DNA of 64,000 nt from an uncultured Granulosicoccaceae bacterium (lineage in GTDB: Bacteria; Pseudomonadota; Gammaproteobacteria; Granulosicoccales; Granulosicoccaceae): positions 62,001 to 126,000 of the forward strand of contig CALFCF010000036.1 in assembly GCA_937951345.1 (NCBI GenBank), written 5' to 3'. Under the pieces are notes generated by a model. The model had not been told where the DNA came from and searched no databases. It worked only from the letters and a program-made list of their open reading frames with translations. Positions within the stretch are counted from its first letter, which is position 1. Every line of letters starts with the position of its first letter. The position numbers and the translations under genes are program-made. Below, piece by piece: positions 37,216 to 43,975 of this stretch.

Positions 37216-37899
37216 ATGGAAAAAAAGATGTCGGAAATTTCGATCAAACATAAATTTGTTGTTGTGGAAGGCCCTATCGGTGTCGGCAAGTCGACATTGG
37301 CGCTTCGACTAAGCCGCAAGCTGGGTTACCGGTTTCTTGCAGATACAGATGCCGCCAACCCGTACCTTGAGAAGTTCTACCGCAATCCTCGACAATATGC
37401 ATTGCACACGCAACTGCATTTTATGTTGTCACGGATCGATGCGTTAACTTCCGGTGTTGGTGCAGACGAGCGTCATTTGTCGCTCGCTGACGATGGTCTT
37501 GTATCGGATTTTTTTCTCGACAAAGATGGCTTGTTCGCTGCTGAAACGCTCGATGAACAGGAATTTGCGCTTTACCAGCGTTTGTTGCAACGCATGGGAG
37601 GTGCTTTACCCTATCCGGATCTAGTTATTTATTTGCAGGCACCTGTGGAAATTCTGATCGAGCGTATCGAAAAACGCGGACATAAATTCGAACAGCGCAT
37701 GGACAGCAGCTATTTGCGCAGGATAGTGGATCGCTACGAGAGTTATTTCCACCAATACGACCAGTCGCCGCTGTTGGTAGTCAATGCGTCAGAGATCAAT
37801 CTGGCTGATAACCGCCAGGATTTTGCTAATTTGTTGCAAAATATCGCAGAAATTACCGCAGGGCGTCACTACTTGAATCCCATCGCTGAAGTGTCCTAG
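37216..37899 (+). CDS. Deoxynucleoside kinase family protein
   Basis: This roughly 227-residue enzyme has the P-loop GPIGVGKST, then SDFFLDKDGLFA (the family's DYxxxKD-like stretch), LPYPDLVIYLQAPVEILIERI, and the lid region RGHKFEQRMDSSYLRRI. It belongs to the deoxyadenosine/deoxycytidine/deoxyguanosine kinase family and would salvage deoxynucleosides; the base specificity cannot be read. It follows folK by about 96 bp, as in many gammaproteobacteria. The start at ATG 37216 is taken over the upstream ATG (37183) because a GGA lies close before it. Confidence 0.88.
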   Translation: MEKKMSEISIKHKFVVVEGPIGVGKSTLALRLSRKLGYRFLADTDAANPYLEKFYRNPRQYALHTQLHFMLSRIDALTSGVGADERHLSLADDGLVSDFFLDKDGLFAAETLDEQEFALYQRLLQRMGGALPYPDLVIYLQAPVEILIERIEKRGHKFEQRMDSSYLRRIVDRYESYFHQYDQSPLLVVNASEINLADNRQDFANLLQNIAEITAGRHYLNPIAEVS

Positions 37900-38179
37900 T
37901 ACCCTGTCTCTGTACATAGGAAACTACTGAATGTCGCGTTTAAGTCATTGAAATTCGATATAAATTAGGTTTTTTGCACAAAAAAGCGCATTCTACGGCA
38001 ATTCACTCAGAGAATACTTGGCCGAGGGCGCGCGTTTGTTAAAATAGCGGATTGTCGCCAGATGGATGCAGTGTTCGTCGCGCATACCGCGCTCGTTTCC
38101 GCATCACATACTGTGTAACGTACCATCTGGATTCACTTGTAACATCGCCTGCAGGCCTCACCTGGAGCCTTAATACACT

Positions 38180-38881
38180 ATGCCTGAATTTCAAACGCTA
38201 AGAATTGCGTTGCTCGAAGACGACGAGGAGCAATCTGCGCGCGTATCTTCCTGGATTATTGACAAGAATTATCAGTGCAGTGTTTTTGGTGCCGCTGACG
38301 AATTTCAGCGAGCGTTCCGCAAGACCAGTTTTGATATTGTAATCCTTGACTGGACACTTGAGACCGGTAGTTCCGGGCTTGAAGTTTTGCAGTGGATTCG
38401 CAAAACGCTGTCCAGTGATATTCCGATAATCTTCGTCACTGCGCGAAAGGCTGAAGCGGATATCGTCACTGCCTTGCAGGCAGGTGCGGATGACTATCTG
38501 GGTAAACCGGTTCGTCAACATGAGTTGCTGGCCAGACTTCAGGCTTTGGCGCGTCGCGCCCAGCCTGAGACCGAGACATTGGAGTGCCCGCCCTACACAT
38601 TTGACACGGCTAATCGACAAGTATTATTGGATGGCGAGCCAGTTCGACTCACTGAGAAAGAATACGAGCTGGCAGTTTTCCTGTTTCGCAATCGTGGCCG
38701 CGTTCTTTCGCGTCAACATCTACTGACTTCAGTCTGGGGTACCTCTGCGGAATTAAACACGCGCACGGTCGACACCCATGCTAGCCGCCTGCGCAAAAAG
38801 CTCAAGCTTCTTGCTTCTGAGCGCTGGAAACTGACATCAATTTATCAGCACGGTTACAGGCTTGAGGAACACACTGCGTAA
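38180..38881 (+). CDS. OmpR-family response regulator
   Basis: This 233-residue regulator has a receiver domain with acidic pocket (LLEDDEE), phospho-acceptor Asp57 (DIVILDWTLE), Thr87 and Lys109 (DYLGKPV), then a winged helix DNA-binding domain (TEKEYELAVFLFRNRGRVLS, WGTSAELNTRTVDTHASRLRKKL). All phosphotransfer residues are present. The likely kinase is the CHASE2 histidine kinase 2.4 kb downstream on the same strand, since no other kinase gene is in the window, but the pairing is inferred. The 280 bp upstream contain an 8 bp inverted repeat (CCAGATGG at 38058, CCATCTGG at 38123). Confidence 0.92.
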   Translation: MPEFQTLRIALLEDDEEQSARVSSWIIDKNYQCSVFGAADEFQRAFRKTSFDIVILDWTLETGSSGLEVLQWIRKTLSSDIPIIFVTARKAEADIVTALQAGADDYLGKPVRQHELLARLQALARRAQPETETLECPPYTFDTANRQVLLDGEPVRLTEKEYELAVFLFRNRGRVLSRQHLLTSVWGTSAELNTRTVDTHASRLRKKLKLLASERWKLTSIYQHGYRLEEHTA

Positions 38882-39663
38882 TTGATAAAGAATACGTTTT
38901 CCCCGACGCGCAATTAATCATGCTCGGGGTTGTTTGCGAACTACCTTGATCTGCATGAAGTCTTGGTGAGCGTTGCAATATAGTTGCGTCAGCGCAGATC
39001 AGTCACCTATTTGACTTTACGGTAGAGAGCCGGTTGAGAGCATAACTGCTGTGTGATGCAATAAAATTCGAAGCTGTAGTTTCCGCAGTTCTTCGGCAGT
39101 TCAGTTCTTCGGCAGTTCAGTTGTTCGGCAGTTCAATGGGGTTAACTAATGTGTCTGTGCTCGCCAGGGTGCACAAAACCGGTTAAGACTGGTGCTTGGC
39201 ATGCCGCTCCCTTGTTGACAAGTAACTGCTTGGCCTACTCGATTCGGGCTACCGTGATTCTCCGAGTATGTATCTTGGTGCATTTTATCTAGCGGTTTCC
39301 GGCACTTCGCAGCACTTACACAATGAATTTGCCGAGTATCGCGAGGTAGGGTAGCGCCCGTTAGCTACACTTGTTCATTATGCTGGTTGCACGCACACAG
39401 TAAAATATTGCAGGTATCGGCGAGAGCTACACTAACGTGTAACTGGTACACCAATCGATAGTTGTAATAAAGTTCATTGGTCATGAACTTCTTTAGCATC
39501 AATAATCGTGTCCATTGCGATGATGTGACCGGGTTTAGGCCGAGCCTGGAACAAGGTACAGGTTGTGCAGATCACGACTTGGTATACAGAAGGCTATATA
39601 CGTATGCAAATAACTATTTCCCGGAAATGTTCAAGGTCAGCTCAGTGTGAGGTAGTTGAAACT
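38882..39663. other. 782 bp intergenic region between regulator and LysM-FecR gene
   Basis: No open frame here looks like a protein. A weak hairpin (CCCCGA...TCGGGG, 38902-38930) may terminate the regulator transcript. A 16 bp tandem repeat lies at 39088-39135. The region is unusually long for this gene-dense window and could hold regulatory sites or a small RNA. Confidence 0.45.
39088..39135 (+). repeat. Tandem repeat, 16 bp unit GTTCTTCGGCAGTTCA, 3 copies
   Basis: The first two units are exact. The third has one change (GTTGTTCGGCAGTTCA). Confidence 0.95.
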
Positions 39664-41001
39664 ATGGATGTGTCTTTTTTAACCAGGCGATTCTGCCGAC
39701 TGCTATTCGCAGTCGCGATTTTGTCTTTCACTGCCAGTGGCCAGGCAAATGATTCCAGTGGTGAACGTTTTGTTGATTCGAGCATCGAGCGAATTTTGGT
39801 GACAGGTGAGGGAGACACATTCCCAACACTTGGTGTCAATGTATTCGGTACGGTCGGGATGGGGCGCTTACTTGCAGAGTACAACAGCATACCGTTTGAT
39901 ACCGTATTTGAAGCAGGGACCGAGATCATCGTTCCCACGCACCTGCAGTCAAAGAAAAACTATGCCACTGTAGCCTATGTAAAAGGCAACTCCGTTGTTC
40001 ATGTTGCTGGTAGTAATGTCGCGGTGATGCCAATCGAGACAGGCCAGCGAATCTACACGACAGACGTTATTGTCACCGACAATGACGGGTTTGTGAGTGT
40101 GACGCTCTCTAATGGTAGCGTTATCAATGTACAACCCGAAAGTCGAGCGGTGCTGGCTGAACTCTCTTGTATGCCACGCGACAGTGAATGTGCCTTTCTT
40201 ATGGACTCGCAGGGAGGTTCTGTATCGGCTGATGTCCAAACTCGAGAAGGCCAGACAAACCGTTTTTTGATCAAAACTCCTTATGCATCTGCTGCAGTGC
40301 GTGGGACTGTCTTTGATTTTGACGCAAGCCCGGATGCGCTCAGTGTTGGAGTCACAGAAGGGCAGGTGGCGGTAACCGCCGGAGAATCCGACCTTTCGCT
40401 CCCAACAGGGTTTGGTTCGCGCACGGAAGCAGGCAAAGCACCGGGTGAGCCCGTCGCGTTGTTGGAGCAAACGGCCTTCCAGACACCTCTTTCCCGGATC
40501 GGTGAGGAGGATAAGATTGCGTGGGATACACTCCCAGGGGCGCGAGTCTATCAACTTGCTGTGAGTGGGGATATTGCCGGCACGCAGGAGATCTATCGTG
40601 AAAATTCAACCACCACCGTGCACAGTTTCCGAAAGCTACCGGTCGGTGAAGCTTACCTGTCAGTTCGGGGTGTAGACCGCAACGATTTAAAGGGTTTTCC
40701 GGCAGTACAAAAAATGAATATAGTTGCGGTTGATGAAACTCTGCCACGTCCTGTATTGAAGCAGAGTGTTGAAGACGGTGTCGTCCATGTCAGCACCGAA
40801 GAACGAACTGACCAGCTGCATGAGTTGCAGTTTTCGCAGAGGGAAGACTTCGCAGCTGCGGTTGCTGTCGATGTGCCTTCGGATGGTGGTGCAAGTCATC
40901 AGCTACAGAACAGTGAGCGCCTGTACGTGCGAGGTCGCGTGATCGTCGACGATTCTACTGTTGGCGCCTATGGGCCAGTAATTCTGGTTGAGGCTGACTG
41001 A
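39664..41001 (+). CDS. Secreted LysM-FecR domain protein
   Basis: The protein (about 446 residues from ATG 39664) has a signal peptide (RRFCRLLFAVAILSFTASGQA), a LysM-like segment (EGDTFPTLGVNVFGT to EIIVPTHL) expected to bind peptidoglycan, and a FecR domain (about 115-240, with GQRIYTTDVIVTDNDGFVSV and TPYASAAVRGTVFDF). C-terminal stretches that look fibronectin III-like follow. The open frame extends 33 codons upstream, but GAGG before 39664 and the signal peptide favour the internal start. FecR-type domains often act in signal transfer in the envelope. It is 335 bp upstream of the CHASE2 kinase gene. Confidence 0.85.
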   Translation: MDVSFLTRRFCRLLFAVAILSFTASGQANDSSGERFVDSSIERILVTGEGDTFPTLGVNVFGTVGMGRLLAEYNSIPFDTVFEAGTEIIVPTHLQSKKNYATVAYVKGNSVVHVAGSNVAVMPIETGQRIYTTDVIVTDNDGFVSVTLSNGSVINVQPESRAVLAELSCMPRDSECAFLMDSQGGSVSADVQTREGQTNRFLIKTPYASAAVRGTVFDFDASPDALSVGVTEGQVAVTAGESDLSLPTGFGSRTEAGKAPGEPVALLEQTAFQTPLSRIGEEDKIAWDTLPGARVYQLAVSGDIAGTQEIYRENSTTTVHSFRKLPVGEAYLSVRGVDRNDLKGFPAVQKMNIVAVDETLPRPVLKQSVEDGVVHVSTEERTDQLHELQFSQREDFAAAVAVDVPSDGGASHQLQNSERLYVRGRVIVDDSTVGAYGPVILVEAD

Positions 41002-41335
41002 GACTGTATGCGGCGTACTTGCTGCATTCTTCAATTCTGGTTGGCGCCGTAAATGCAGTAATAGTAATTTTAGCTCTGACCCGTGCGATATTTTTACTAT
41101 CGGTAAGGTAGGTAAGACAGATACGGAAAAACAGTTACGTTAGACGTTTAAACGCGATTTCGCATTACCCGTATTATTTACAAACTTTATTTTGACTTAA
41201 AACCTTATTTGTAATTTAACAATAGCGCTGGTACGCGCATCAGTGAATAAGGGCATACCGGTTGTTTGGATCGTTAAGTCCAGGTGAGTCGGTCATTTCA
41301 GCTGTCTCTTGATTCACTGCATTCCTAGCGACAAC
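41002..41335. other. 334 bp AT-rich intergenic region before the CHASE2 kinase gene
   Basis: There is no gene. TTGACT at 41192 and TTTAAC at 41215, 17 bp apart, form a weak promoter candidate for the kinase gene. No terminator is obvious after the LysM-FecR gene. Confidence 0.35.
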
Positions 41336-43975
41336 ATGTCGAGAACATCCAATCAGCAACCCGGGGATATCAGTTTTCTTTCGCTGGTTGGGTTTTATCT
41401 TCTGTTACTTTTCATCTCGTATGTTCTCCACTGGAGCGGAGCAACACAAAATGTTGACCGTTTGTTGCATGACAACTGGGTTCGGTTCGAGCAGCGCCCC
41501 GCACCTGATGATATTGTTATTGTCGGTATAGATCATGACAGTCTGTCGCGCATAGGCCGGTGGCCATGGCCTCGGGAATTGCAGGCAGCGTTTCTAAGTC
41601 GGATAAACGATTTCGGTATTCGCGCCGCTGTAATCGACCTTTTATACGCTGAACCGGATAACCTTCCCCAGAATGACGCGGCATTGGTTAGTGCGATCGA
41701 TGCACTGCCGGTTTCGATTTTGCCGGTGCATACTGAGGGTTTGGGTGCACACACACTACAGGGAGAAATTCTCCCTATCCCGGGCATCTCCAGTAGTGTT
41801 ACAGCACTTGGGCATGTGTCAGTTCCACTCGACGCGGATGGAATTGTTCGCCGCATAAATCTTAAAGCTGGATTCAGAAATCCGCATTGGGAGGCGTTGA
41901 GTCTTGCAGCATTTAATGCACTTGGTGGTAACACTGTTGGCGATGACCTACCTGGTAAGCGCCTAAAAGTCGAGGAAAACGGCAACACGTGGGTCGAAGA
42001 TTATCAAGCGTTGATACCCTTTTACGGACCAGCCAGAACGTTCACGCATATTGGATTGCATGAGATTCTCGACGGTACCGTCGAGCTGGAAGTACTGAAA
42101 GACAAAATAGTGTTCATTGGCGCGACGGCGACGGGTCTTCGTGATCATCTCCCTACCGCAGTCACCTCTAAGCAAACGCCAATGCCTGGCATCGAAATTC
42201 ACGCCAATGTATTTGCCGCTCTACGTGATGGATCAATGGTAAGTGTATTGAATCCGGCGTTTAACTTTCTTATTGGTGGTGTGTTGCTACTGTTTCTGTT
42301 GGTATTCTATTCGCGTTTGTCGCCCATCTGGACTCTGGTGGGGGCAGGAGTGGGTGCTGCGGTACCGATCGCTGCGAGTTTTGTGTTGTACAGATTCTTT
42401 GGAATCTGGTTTGCGCCACTTGTCGCCAGTATACCGATACTTGTTAGCTACTTTTTGTGGAGTTGGCACCGATTAGAATTCTTATCAGAATTTTTACGCC
42501 ATGAAACAGATCGGCTTGATGATGAAATTGGAAATATCGACAGTACAAACAACATTCTTTTGGCTGAATTTTTTCAAAGCGCTGAGCAACATTTGCCCAT
42601 AACAGACTGGCGATTTACGGCAAGTGGCGACGACTATTCGAGTGGAGCAGTACCTCCTGCAGTTCCAAGGGATTTGTCTTCAGAGGGCTGGAATCGTTCT
42701 TCTGATCTCTATGCGCGCCGCTATAAAACACCGGGCAATTTACACATTGTTTTCAGAACGGATGATAACGATTTCGCGATGGAGTTCGCTCGTTACGTAG
42801 ACAGCCTTTCGGTGGTACAGGAAAGACAAACACGTCTTACGCTGGGTAGTTCAATTGAACGAATCCAAATGGATACAACGCGACTGAGTACTCAGGTTGA
42901 ACGACTCAGACAATTAAATGGTTTAAGCGAGAGTATCTTTGAAGGAAGTTCTGCCGGTCTGATAGTCTGGAGTGCAGCCGGTGAAGTTGTGCGTGCTAAT
43001 GATCTTGCAGATACCTGCATGCCAAAGATTTCTGTTCAGGATACAACGCTTAAAGATTTCTTGTCAGCAATAGGTCGTGATCCGTTAAATCGGGATCACC
43101 AGCGACTTCAGGATTTGATACTTGGCTCTCGGTCATGGCAAGTGAACCGAGTTGATGGTGACGATGAATTGGTTATTAATTTTAGTGCTCACGGTGAAAC
43201 TCTGGCTGAGCGATTGATCTCTGCAAGTATTGTAGATGTGACGGAAATTCGCCAAAGTGAGCGATCCAAGGCGGAACTGATAGATTTTCTGTCGCATGAT
43301 TTGCGCTCTCCGCTTATTTCCTCTTTGTATATGCTGACGGATGACACGAACACCATTTCATCCAATAACGAAGATGAAGCATCAGGCAGTCCGGTTGAAC
43401 GTATCAAATCAAATATCAATCGCAGTTTAAGTATGATGGATGATTTGCTGACAATCGCCAGAGCGGATAATCTGACATCGGAGCAGTTCTCGGAAGTGCT
43501 GTTCGACAATATCGTGGACAATGCGGTGGATCAATTGATGCCGCAAGCGCGTAGTCGCGGAATAGTCCTTGAGATGGATCAGCAGGAAGATGAGGTTTGG
43601 ATCAACGCAGATGCCGCATTGCTCGAACGGGCCATCGTAAACATAATCAGTAACGCGATTAAATATTCACCTGAAGGTGAGAGCGTTAGCGTAACTTCTA
43701 CACGAAGTAACGATCATATCAAACTTGCAGTCAGGGACAATGGGATAGGTATCGCTCCGGATATGATGGATAATCTGTTCAAGCGATTCAAGCGCGACAC
43801 AAAAGCTGTCGGGAATATAAAAGGTATTGGTTTGGGTCTGGCTCTTGTGTCAAGAGTTGTAACGCAGCATGGCGGTAAAGTGTGGGCATCTGATCCGGGC
43901 AAGGGAACATTGATATCGATGGAACTACCTGTTTCTTCTGCTGATGCGTTAGCCCATGATCTACAGGAAGTTTAA
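41336..43975 (+). CDS. CHASE2-domain sensor histidine kinase
   Basis: The protein (about 879 residues) has an N-terminal membrane helix, a periplasmic CHASE2 domain (about 35-300, GIDHDSLSRIGRWPWPR and FIGATATGLRDHLPT), three closely spaced membrane helices (about 305-375), a coiled-coil/PAS-like linker (about 500-630, SSAGLIVWSAAGEVVRAND), HisKA with His654 in SHDLRSPL, and HATPase_c (NIISNAIKYS, DNGIGIAP, GIGLGLALV). Phosphotransfer motifs are complete. The start is put at ATG 41336, not 41309, because the sequence from there fits the N-terminal helix. Its probable partners are the upstream LysM-FecR protein (periplasm) and the response regulator. Confidence 0.9.
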   Translation: MSRTSNQQPGDISFLSLVGFYLLLLFISYVLHWSGATQNVDRLLHDNWVRFEQRPAPDDIVIVGIDHDSLSRIGRWPWPRELQAAFLSRINDFGIRAAVIDLLYAEPDNLPQNDAALVSAIDALPVSILPVHTEGLGAHTLQGEILPIPGISSSVTALGHVSVPLDADGIVRRINLKAGFRNPHWEALSLAAFNALGGNTVGDDLPGKRLKVEENGNTWVEDYQALIPFYGPARTFTHIGLHEILDGTVELEVLKDKIVFIGATATGLRDHLPTAVTSKQTPMPGIEIHANVFAALRDGSMVSVLNPAFNFLIGGVLLLFLLVFYSRLSPIWTLVGAGVGAAVPIAASFVLYRFFGIWFAPLVASIPILVSYFLWSWHRLEFLSEFLRHETDRLDDEIGNIDSTNNILLAEFFQSAEQHLPITDWRFTASGDDYSSGAVPPAVPRDLSSEGWNRSSDLYARRYKTPGNLHIVFRTDDNDFAMEFARYVDSLSVVQERQTRLTLGSSIERIQMDTTRLSTQVERLRQLNGLSESIFEGSSAGLIVWSAAGEVVRANDLADTCMPKISVQDTTLKDFLSAIGRDPLNRDHQRLQDLILGSRSWQVNRVDGDDELVINFSAHGETLAERLISASIVDVTEIRQSERSKAELIDFLSHDLRSPLISSLYMLTDDTNTISSNNEDEASGSPVERIKSNINRSLSMMDDLLTIARADNLTSEQFSEVLFDNIVDNAVDQLMPQARSRGIVLEMDQQEDEVWINADAALLERAIVNIISNAIKYSPEGESVSVTSTRSNDHIKLAVRDNGIGIAPDMMDNLFKRFKRDTKAVGNIKGIGLGLALVSRVVTQHGGKVWASDPGKGTLISMELPVSSADALAHDLQEV

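Follow-up and report, generated by a model that had tools for sequence, protein, structure and literature searches.

Does a run of three plus-strand genes that encodes, in order, an OmpR/PhoB-type response regulator (RR), an exported FecR-domain protein and a CHASE2 histidine kinase form one sensing unit, and what part would the FecR protein play in it? The genes, all intact, lie in the window (the whole stretch of DNA analysed here, 64,000 nucleotides corresponding to bases 62001-126000 of contig 36 in a draft genome of 4.49 Mb) and are flanked there by pcnB, folK, dgk, rpiA and ilvA. The dgk assignment is our own reading of the sequence of this putative gene, for which an NCBIfam search gave no match. 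Coordinates of the trio and its domains are those of the window, on the plus strand.

The first gene (38180..38881) encodes a 233-aa RR with Pfam Response_reg (E 2.8e-21) and Trans_reg_C (E 6.1e-21) domains, and the motifs of its phosphorylation site are intact (the acidic patch, the phospho-acceptor D57, T87 and K109). The third gene (41336..43975) encodes a CHASE2 histidine kinase of 879 aa when read from its ATG; the longest open reading frame starts at a TTG at 41309. Its CHASE2 domain (41414..42292; Pfam E 3.4e-48) was the sole one found in a search of the whole genome, and a PDB sequence search with this region gave no match. The transmembrane layout consists of a single segment at residues 18-45 and a multi-pass stretch at residues 309-386. 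These are followed by a PAS-like region (approximately 42914..43243), where Pfam matches to PAS occur in relatives only and are not significant in the window protein. The phospho-acceptor H663 (43295..43297) lies in the motif SHDLRSP and is invariant in seven aligned kinases, the N, G1 and G2 boxes are intact, and the HATPase_c catalytic domain (43610..43933) has a Pfam E-value of 4.5e-28; the HisKA match is weak (E 3.1e-3) and under its cut-off. The locus thus holds what an orthodox two-component system requires, namely an acceptor His (H663), an acceptor Asp (D57) and an ATPase domain with N and G boxes, which bears out the intact trio, the complete RR phosphorylation residues and the kinase His claimed in a preliminary description of this DNA. 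When the genome contigs were queried with only the kinase, a single locus came back; it had the kinase part alone in common and was set aside.

The middle gene (39664..41001) encodes a protein of 445 aa, predicted to be exported, when read from the ATG at 39664 that precedes the signal peptide; the longest open reading frame starts at a GTG at 39565. The signal peptide (39664..39747, end approximate) was read from the sequence MDVSFLTRRFCRLLFAVAILSFTASGQA without a signal-peptide predictor. Behind it lie a degenerate LysM-like segment (39796..39936, limits approximate, placed by alignment to the LysM of relatives), a FecR domain (PF04773, 40063..40368; Pfam E 1.8e-12) and an FN3/Ig-like C-terminal region (40500..40998, limits approximate) marked by weak matches of the family profile and of relatives. 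The protein had been called a LysM-FecR protein, and the FecR half of that name holds; Pfam LysM is undetected in the window copy even at E 0.1. The aligned segment nonetheless matches Pfam LysM in 20 of 31 relatives, and the profile of the FecR-protein family matches solved LysM structures, so we read the N-terminal segment as a diverged LysM-like segment. Because this segment is degenerate in the window copy, the peptidoglycan-related signal that had been suggested is doubtful. A single-sequence AlphaFold model of the protein was unusable (pLDDT 36).

The FecR Pfam domain is shared with the FecR-type anti-sigma regulators of cell-surface signalling, in which, as in FecIRA, it is periplasmic, and the window protein could on that ground be taken for one of them. 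However, its N-terminus consists of a signal peptide followed by a LysM-like segment, it has neither an anti-sigma region nor a visible inner-membrane anchor (no TM-like segment lay above the threshold used), and its gene adjoins neither a FecA nor an ECF sigma gene; none of its neighbours (the RR, the kinase, pcnB, folK, dgk, rpiA and ilvA) is a sigma-factor gene. We find an anti-sigma role hardly credible here.

In relatives, the trio occupies one syntenic site, 3' of pcnB-folK-dgk and 5' of rpiA-ilvA. The same order of RR, FecR protein and CHASE2 kinase was found outside the window's family in several families of the phylum and in Cupriavidus metallidurans (Burkholderiaceae), whose trio is homologous to all three window proteins; several families of the window's own class, Gammaproteobacteria, have it as well. 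The preliminary description had tied the idea of a module to co-occurrence of the genes in other genomes, and this conservation across several families provides it. Rates of change differ within the trio: the RR is 93% identical to that of congeners, for which the neighbouring housekeeping genes give far lower values (57-71%), and the FecR protein has the lowest identity of the three (38-50%). A conserved RR with a divergent FecR protein is consistent with an output that stays fixed and an input that changes fast.

The spacers were earlier reported as 782 and 334 bp, and these lengths are exact when counted to the ATG starts at 39664 and 41336 (38882..39663 between RR and FecR genes, 41002..41335 between FecR and kinase genes). 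The corresponding spacers of congeners measure 391/75 and 161/48 bp, and other trio loci mostly show overlaps or gaps of at most ~150 bp, a few being near 200-270 bp. The earlier statement that the genes are not an operon therefore fits the relatives badly; in the window itself, where the three genes may or may not still be co-transcribed, the wide spacers look as if an originally tight unit had expanded locally. The first spacer contains a 16-bp unit, CAGTTCTTCGGCAGTT, repeated 3.1 times in tandem at 39086-39135; it yielded no gene, its coding similarity being confined to the 5' extension of the FecR gene, and no second copy in the genome. The window and congener spacers have no common sequence, the second window spacer likewise lacks coding similarity, Rfam gave no match over 37800-41500, and promoter and terminator scans stayed near chance level. 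A candidate terminator hairpin 3' of the RR gene was not significant (z -1.05), and a search 5' of the RR gene for an RR-binding motif found none. A conserved block in that upstream region seems to be where the coding sequence of dgk, the gene upstream, ends. Spacers this wide, and not conserved with congeners, are what chance neighbours from separate pathways might show, but order, strand and site are conserved in relatives and in other families, with gaps that are mostly short, which makes a chance arrangement very improbable. The RR, FecR protein and CHASE2 kinase are a real, conserved sensing unit.

This arrangement is not new. Its closest known counterparts are BiofilmReg and PA4035/PA4036 of Pseudomonas aeruginosa. 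The BiofilmReg operon was described in 2016 from Burkholderia contaminans and other Burkholderiales, and comprises an RR, a LysM/FecR protein and a CHASE2 kinase, to which a DUF4136 protein is added in Burkholderia (Voronina et al. 2016, PMC5192318). B. contaminans no longer formed biofilm when its RR gene carried an insertion, few Gammaproteobacteria were reported with the arrangement, and both envelope proteins were already proposed to sense signals relayed to the RR, a proposal that comes near to the idea in the preliminary description; the same study gives the ligands of CHASE2 as unknown (PMC5192318). The window trio matches BiofilmReg in its three components, their order on one strand and their domain types. 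Its middle protein has the FecR domain (1.8e-12) and a LysM that is homologous but degenerate and below detection; its kinase has CHASE2, transmembrane segments and HATPase, with a weak HisKA and a PAS that is below detection and seen only in relatives. Unlike BiofilmReg, where the genes are separated by an overlap and 10 bp, the window has wide spacers, and it lacks the fourth gene for DUF4136, rpiA following the kinase on the other strand. Spacing is variable among members, and we treat close spacing as non-essential. The window trio is thus a further case of the arrangement published for Burkholderia.

We consider it probable that the trio works as an envelope-sensing two-component system with a third component, of the kind seen in BiofilmReg. 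In the periplasm, the exported LysM-like/FecR/FN3-like protein would meet the CHASE2 domain of the kinase, and the input would be an altered bound or bridged state of the FecR protein, or another signal read by CHASE2. This signal would cross the membrane via the transmembrane bundle and the PAS-like region and switch autophosphorylation at H663. We infer that the phosphate then passes from H663 to D57 of the adjacent RR, which would control transcription of its target genes; by analogy with BiofilmReg, these may be biofilm or matrix genes.

Comparison with two sister genera separates the FecR protein from the other two components. In genera g4 (15 genomes with the CHASE2 kinase) and g2 (together L171-L186), the RR and kinase genes are neighbours at the same site with no FecR gene between them. 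Because FecR is missing there while RR and kinase stay adjacent, the RR-kinase pair is the core of the module, and this persistent adjacency supports the view that the two are cognate. It also follows that FecR-kinase pairing at the gene level is not obligatory. CHASE2 constraint is not relaxed in genomes without an adjacent FecR gene (entropy 1.17 vs 1.14), and just three candidate CHASE2 sites were lost along with FecR, so no FecR-CHASE2 interface can be inferred from these data. The RR and kinase might accordingly be self-sufficient, with CHASE2 sensing a ligand of its own and the FecR protein being a co-regulated output or an envelope structural protein; besides the FecR-less sites and the equal constraint on CHASE2, the rank of the FecR protein as the fastest-changing member of the trio speaks for this. 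However, g4 and g2 genomes retain a LysM-FecR paralogue at another locus, beside pyruvate kinase in g2 and nearly always so in g4. The FecR and kinase trees agree with a duplication after which g2/g4 lost the operonic copy, and agree equally with a loss in the ancestor of g2/g4 and re-insertion in g1.

A survey of the phylum argues further against a self-sufficient RR and kinase. Among 80 CHASE2-centred regions fetched, with 72 classifiable CHASE2 genes, a FecR gene lay directly upstream on the same strand in 11 of 12 CHASE2 kinases, against 2 FecR genes among 199 gene slots at a distance of three or four genes (Fisher p ~1e-15, a value that is indicative only, as the sample was partly chosen by CHASE2 score and includes a few close relatives). 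FecR genes also adjoin CHASE2 cyclases, more rarely (10 of 46), and such pairs turn up repeatedly, whether the CHASE2 protein is a kinase, a hybrid kinase or a cyclase. To the published BiofilmReg picture we thus add both this association with cyclases and the absence of FecR in two sister genera.

One of the cyclase loci (L155) leads to a system with a described function. Its upstream gene encodes a 1256-aa FecR-TPR protein that is 55.6% identical to a pSymB protein of Sinorhizobium meliloti 1021; in a second S. meliloti record, a homologue bears the annotation nsrA. Besides TPRs, the pSymB protein contains a FecR domain (2.3e-15). The stop of its gene is overlapped by the start of the following gene, which encodes a CHASE2 cyclase. 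This cyclase gene is probably cyaK. NsrA, an outer-membrane receptor, and the cyclase CyaK are required for plant-signal perception (PMC7529298; PMC13001267). As in the window, the gene directly upstream of that for the CHASE2 receptor encodes a FecR-domain envelope protein; unlike the window protein, NsrA sits in the outer membrane as a TPR/beta-barrel protein of ~1200 aa, and the output of its CHASE2 partner is a cyclase rather than a kinase. NsrA with its CHASE2 cyclase is the best precedent for a transfer of signal from FecR to CHASE2. That CHASE2-cyclase signalling has a genetic requirement for NsrA (PMC7529298) also weighs against a self-sufficient RR-kinase pair, which we regard as rather unlikely, though a serious contender.

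Because of the NsrA precedent, we favour, short of proof, a role for the window FecR protein as the periplasmic input partner of CHASE2. The idea of such a partnership, put forward in the preliminary description, gains from NsrA and from the adjacency in 11 of 12 kinases; an obligatory link between the two is weakened by the sister genera. Against the three-component reading stand g4 and g2, with no adjacent FecR and an unrelaxed CHASE2, the undetectable LysM of the window copy, the wide spacers, which make co-transcription in the window less than certain, and SMc02177, another S. meliloti FecR protein, which is dispensable for perception (PMC5498481).

Taken alone, the window locus is an ordinary member of its kind, and whether FecR is a common partner of CHASE2 is the more interesting question. 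We tentatively suggest, as a possibility somewhat short of even, that CHASE2 receptors with any type of output (histidine kinase, hybrid kinase or cyclase) generally have FecR-domain envelope proteins as their periplasmic partners, with FecR as the conserved coupling part, varied front ends, and use of a paralogue in genera without an operonic FecR. LysM-like/FN3-like front ends would then serve wall or matrix sensing, and NsrA-like TPR-barrel front ends outer-membrane sensing. If FecR is the usual signal route to CHASE2, the window two-component system and rhizobial NsrA-CyaK have one input mechanism, and CHASE2, an orphan sensor domain of kinases and cyclases, gains a concrete candidate for its binding partner.

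The window genome itself has three proteins of the LysM-FecR family, one operonic, one linked to pyruvate kinase and one linked to a single-domain receiver. The two extra copies (G000:C95:16890-18197, L042; G000:C26:15461-16702, L041) have no CHASE2 gene beside them; one adjoins pyruvate kinase and an RpiR/SIS-type regulator, the other the single-domain receiver. In genus g3 (L047-L060), a separate clade of FecR paralogues is found at other sites; a major facilitator transporter is a frequent neighbour there, and one copy lies close to a GGDEF-EAL protein. At three loci (L150:516-4286, L155:5473-9243 and L158:3-3506), CHASE2 genes adjoin genes for large proteins (~1170-1256 aa) whose FecR domain is N-terminal, and TPRs were found in the L155 protein, the one scanned of the three.
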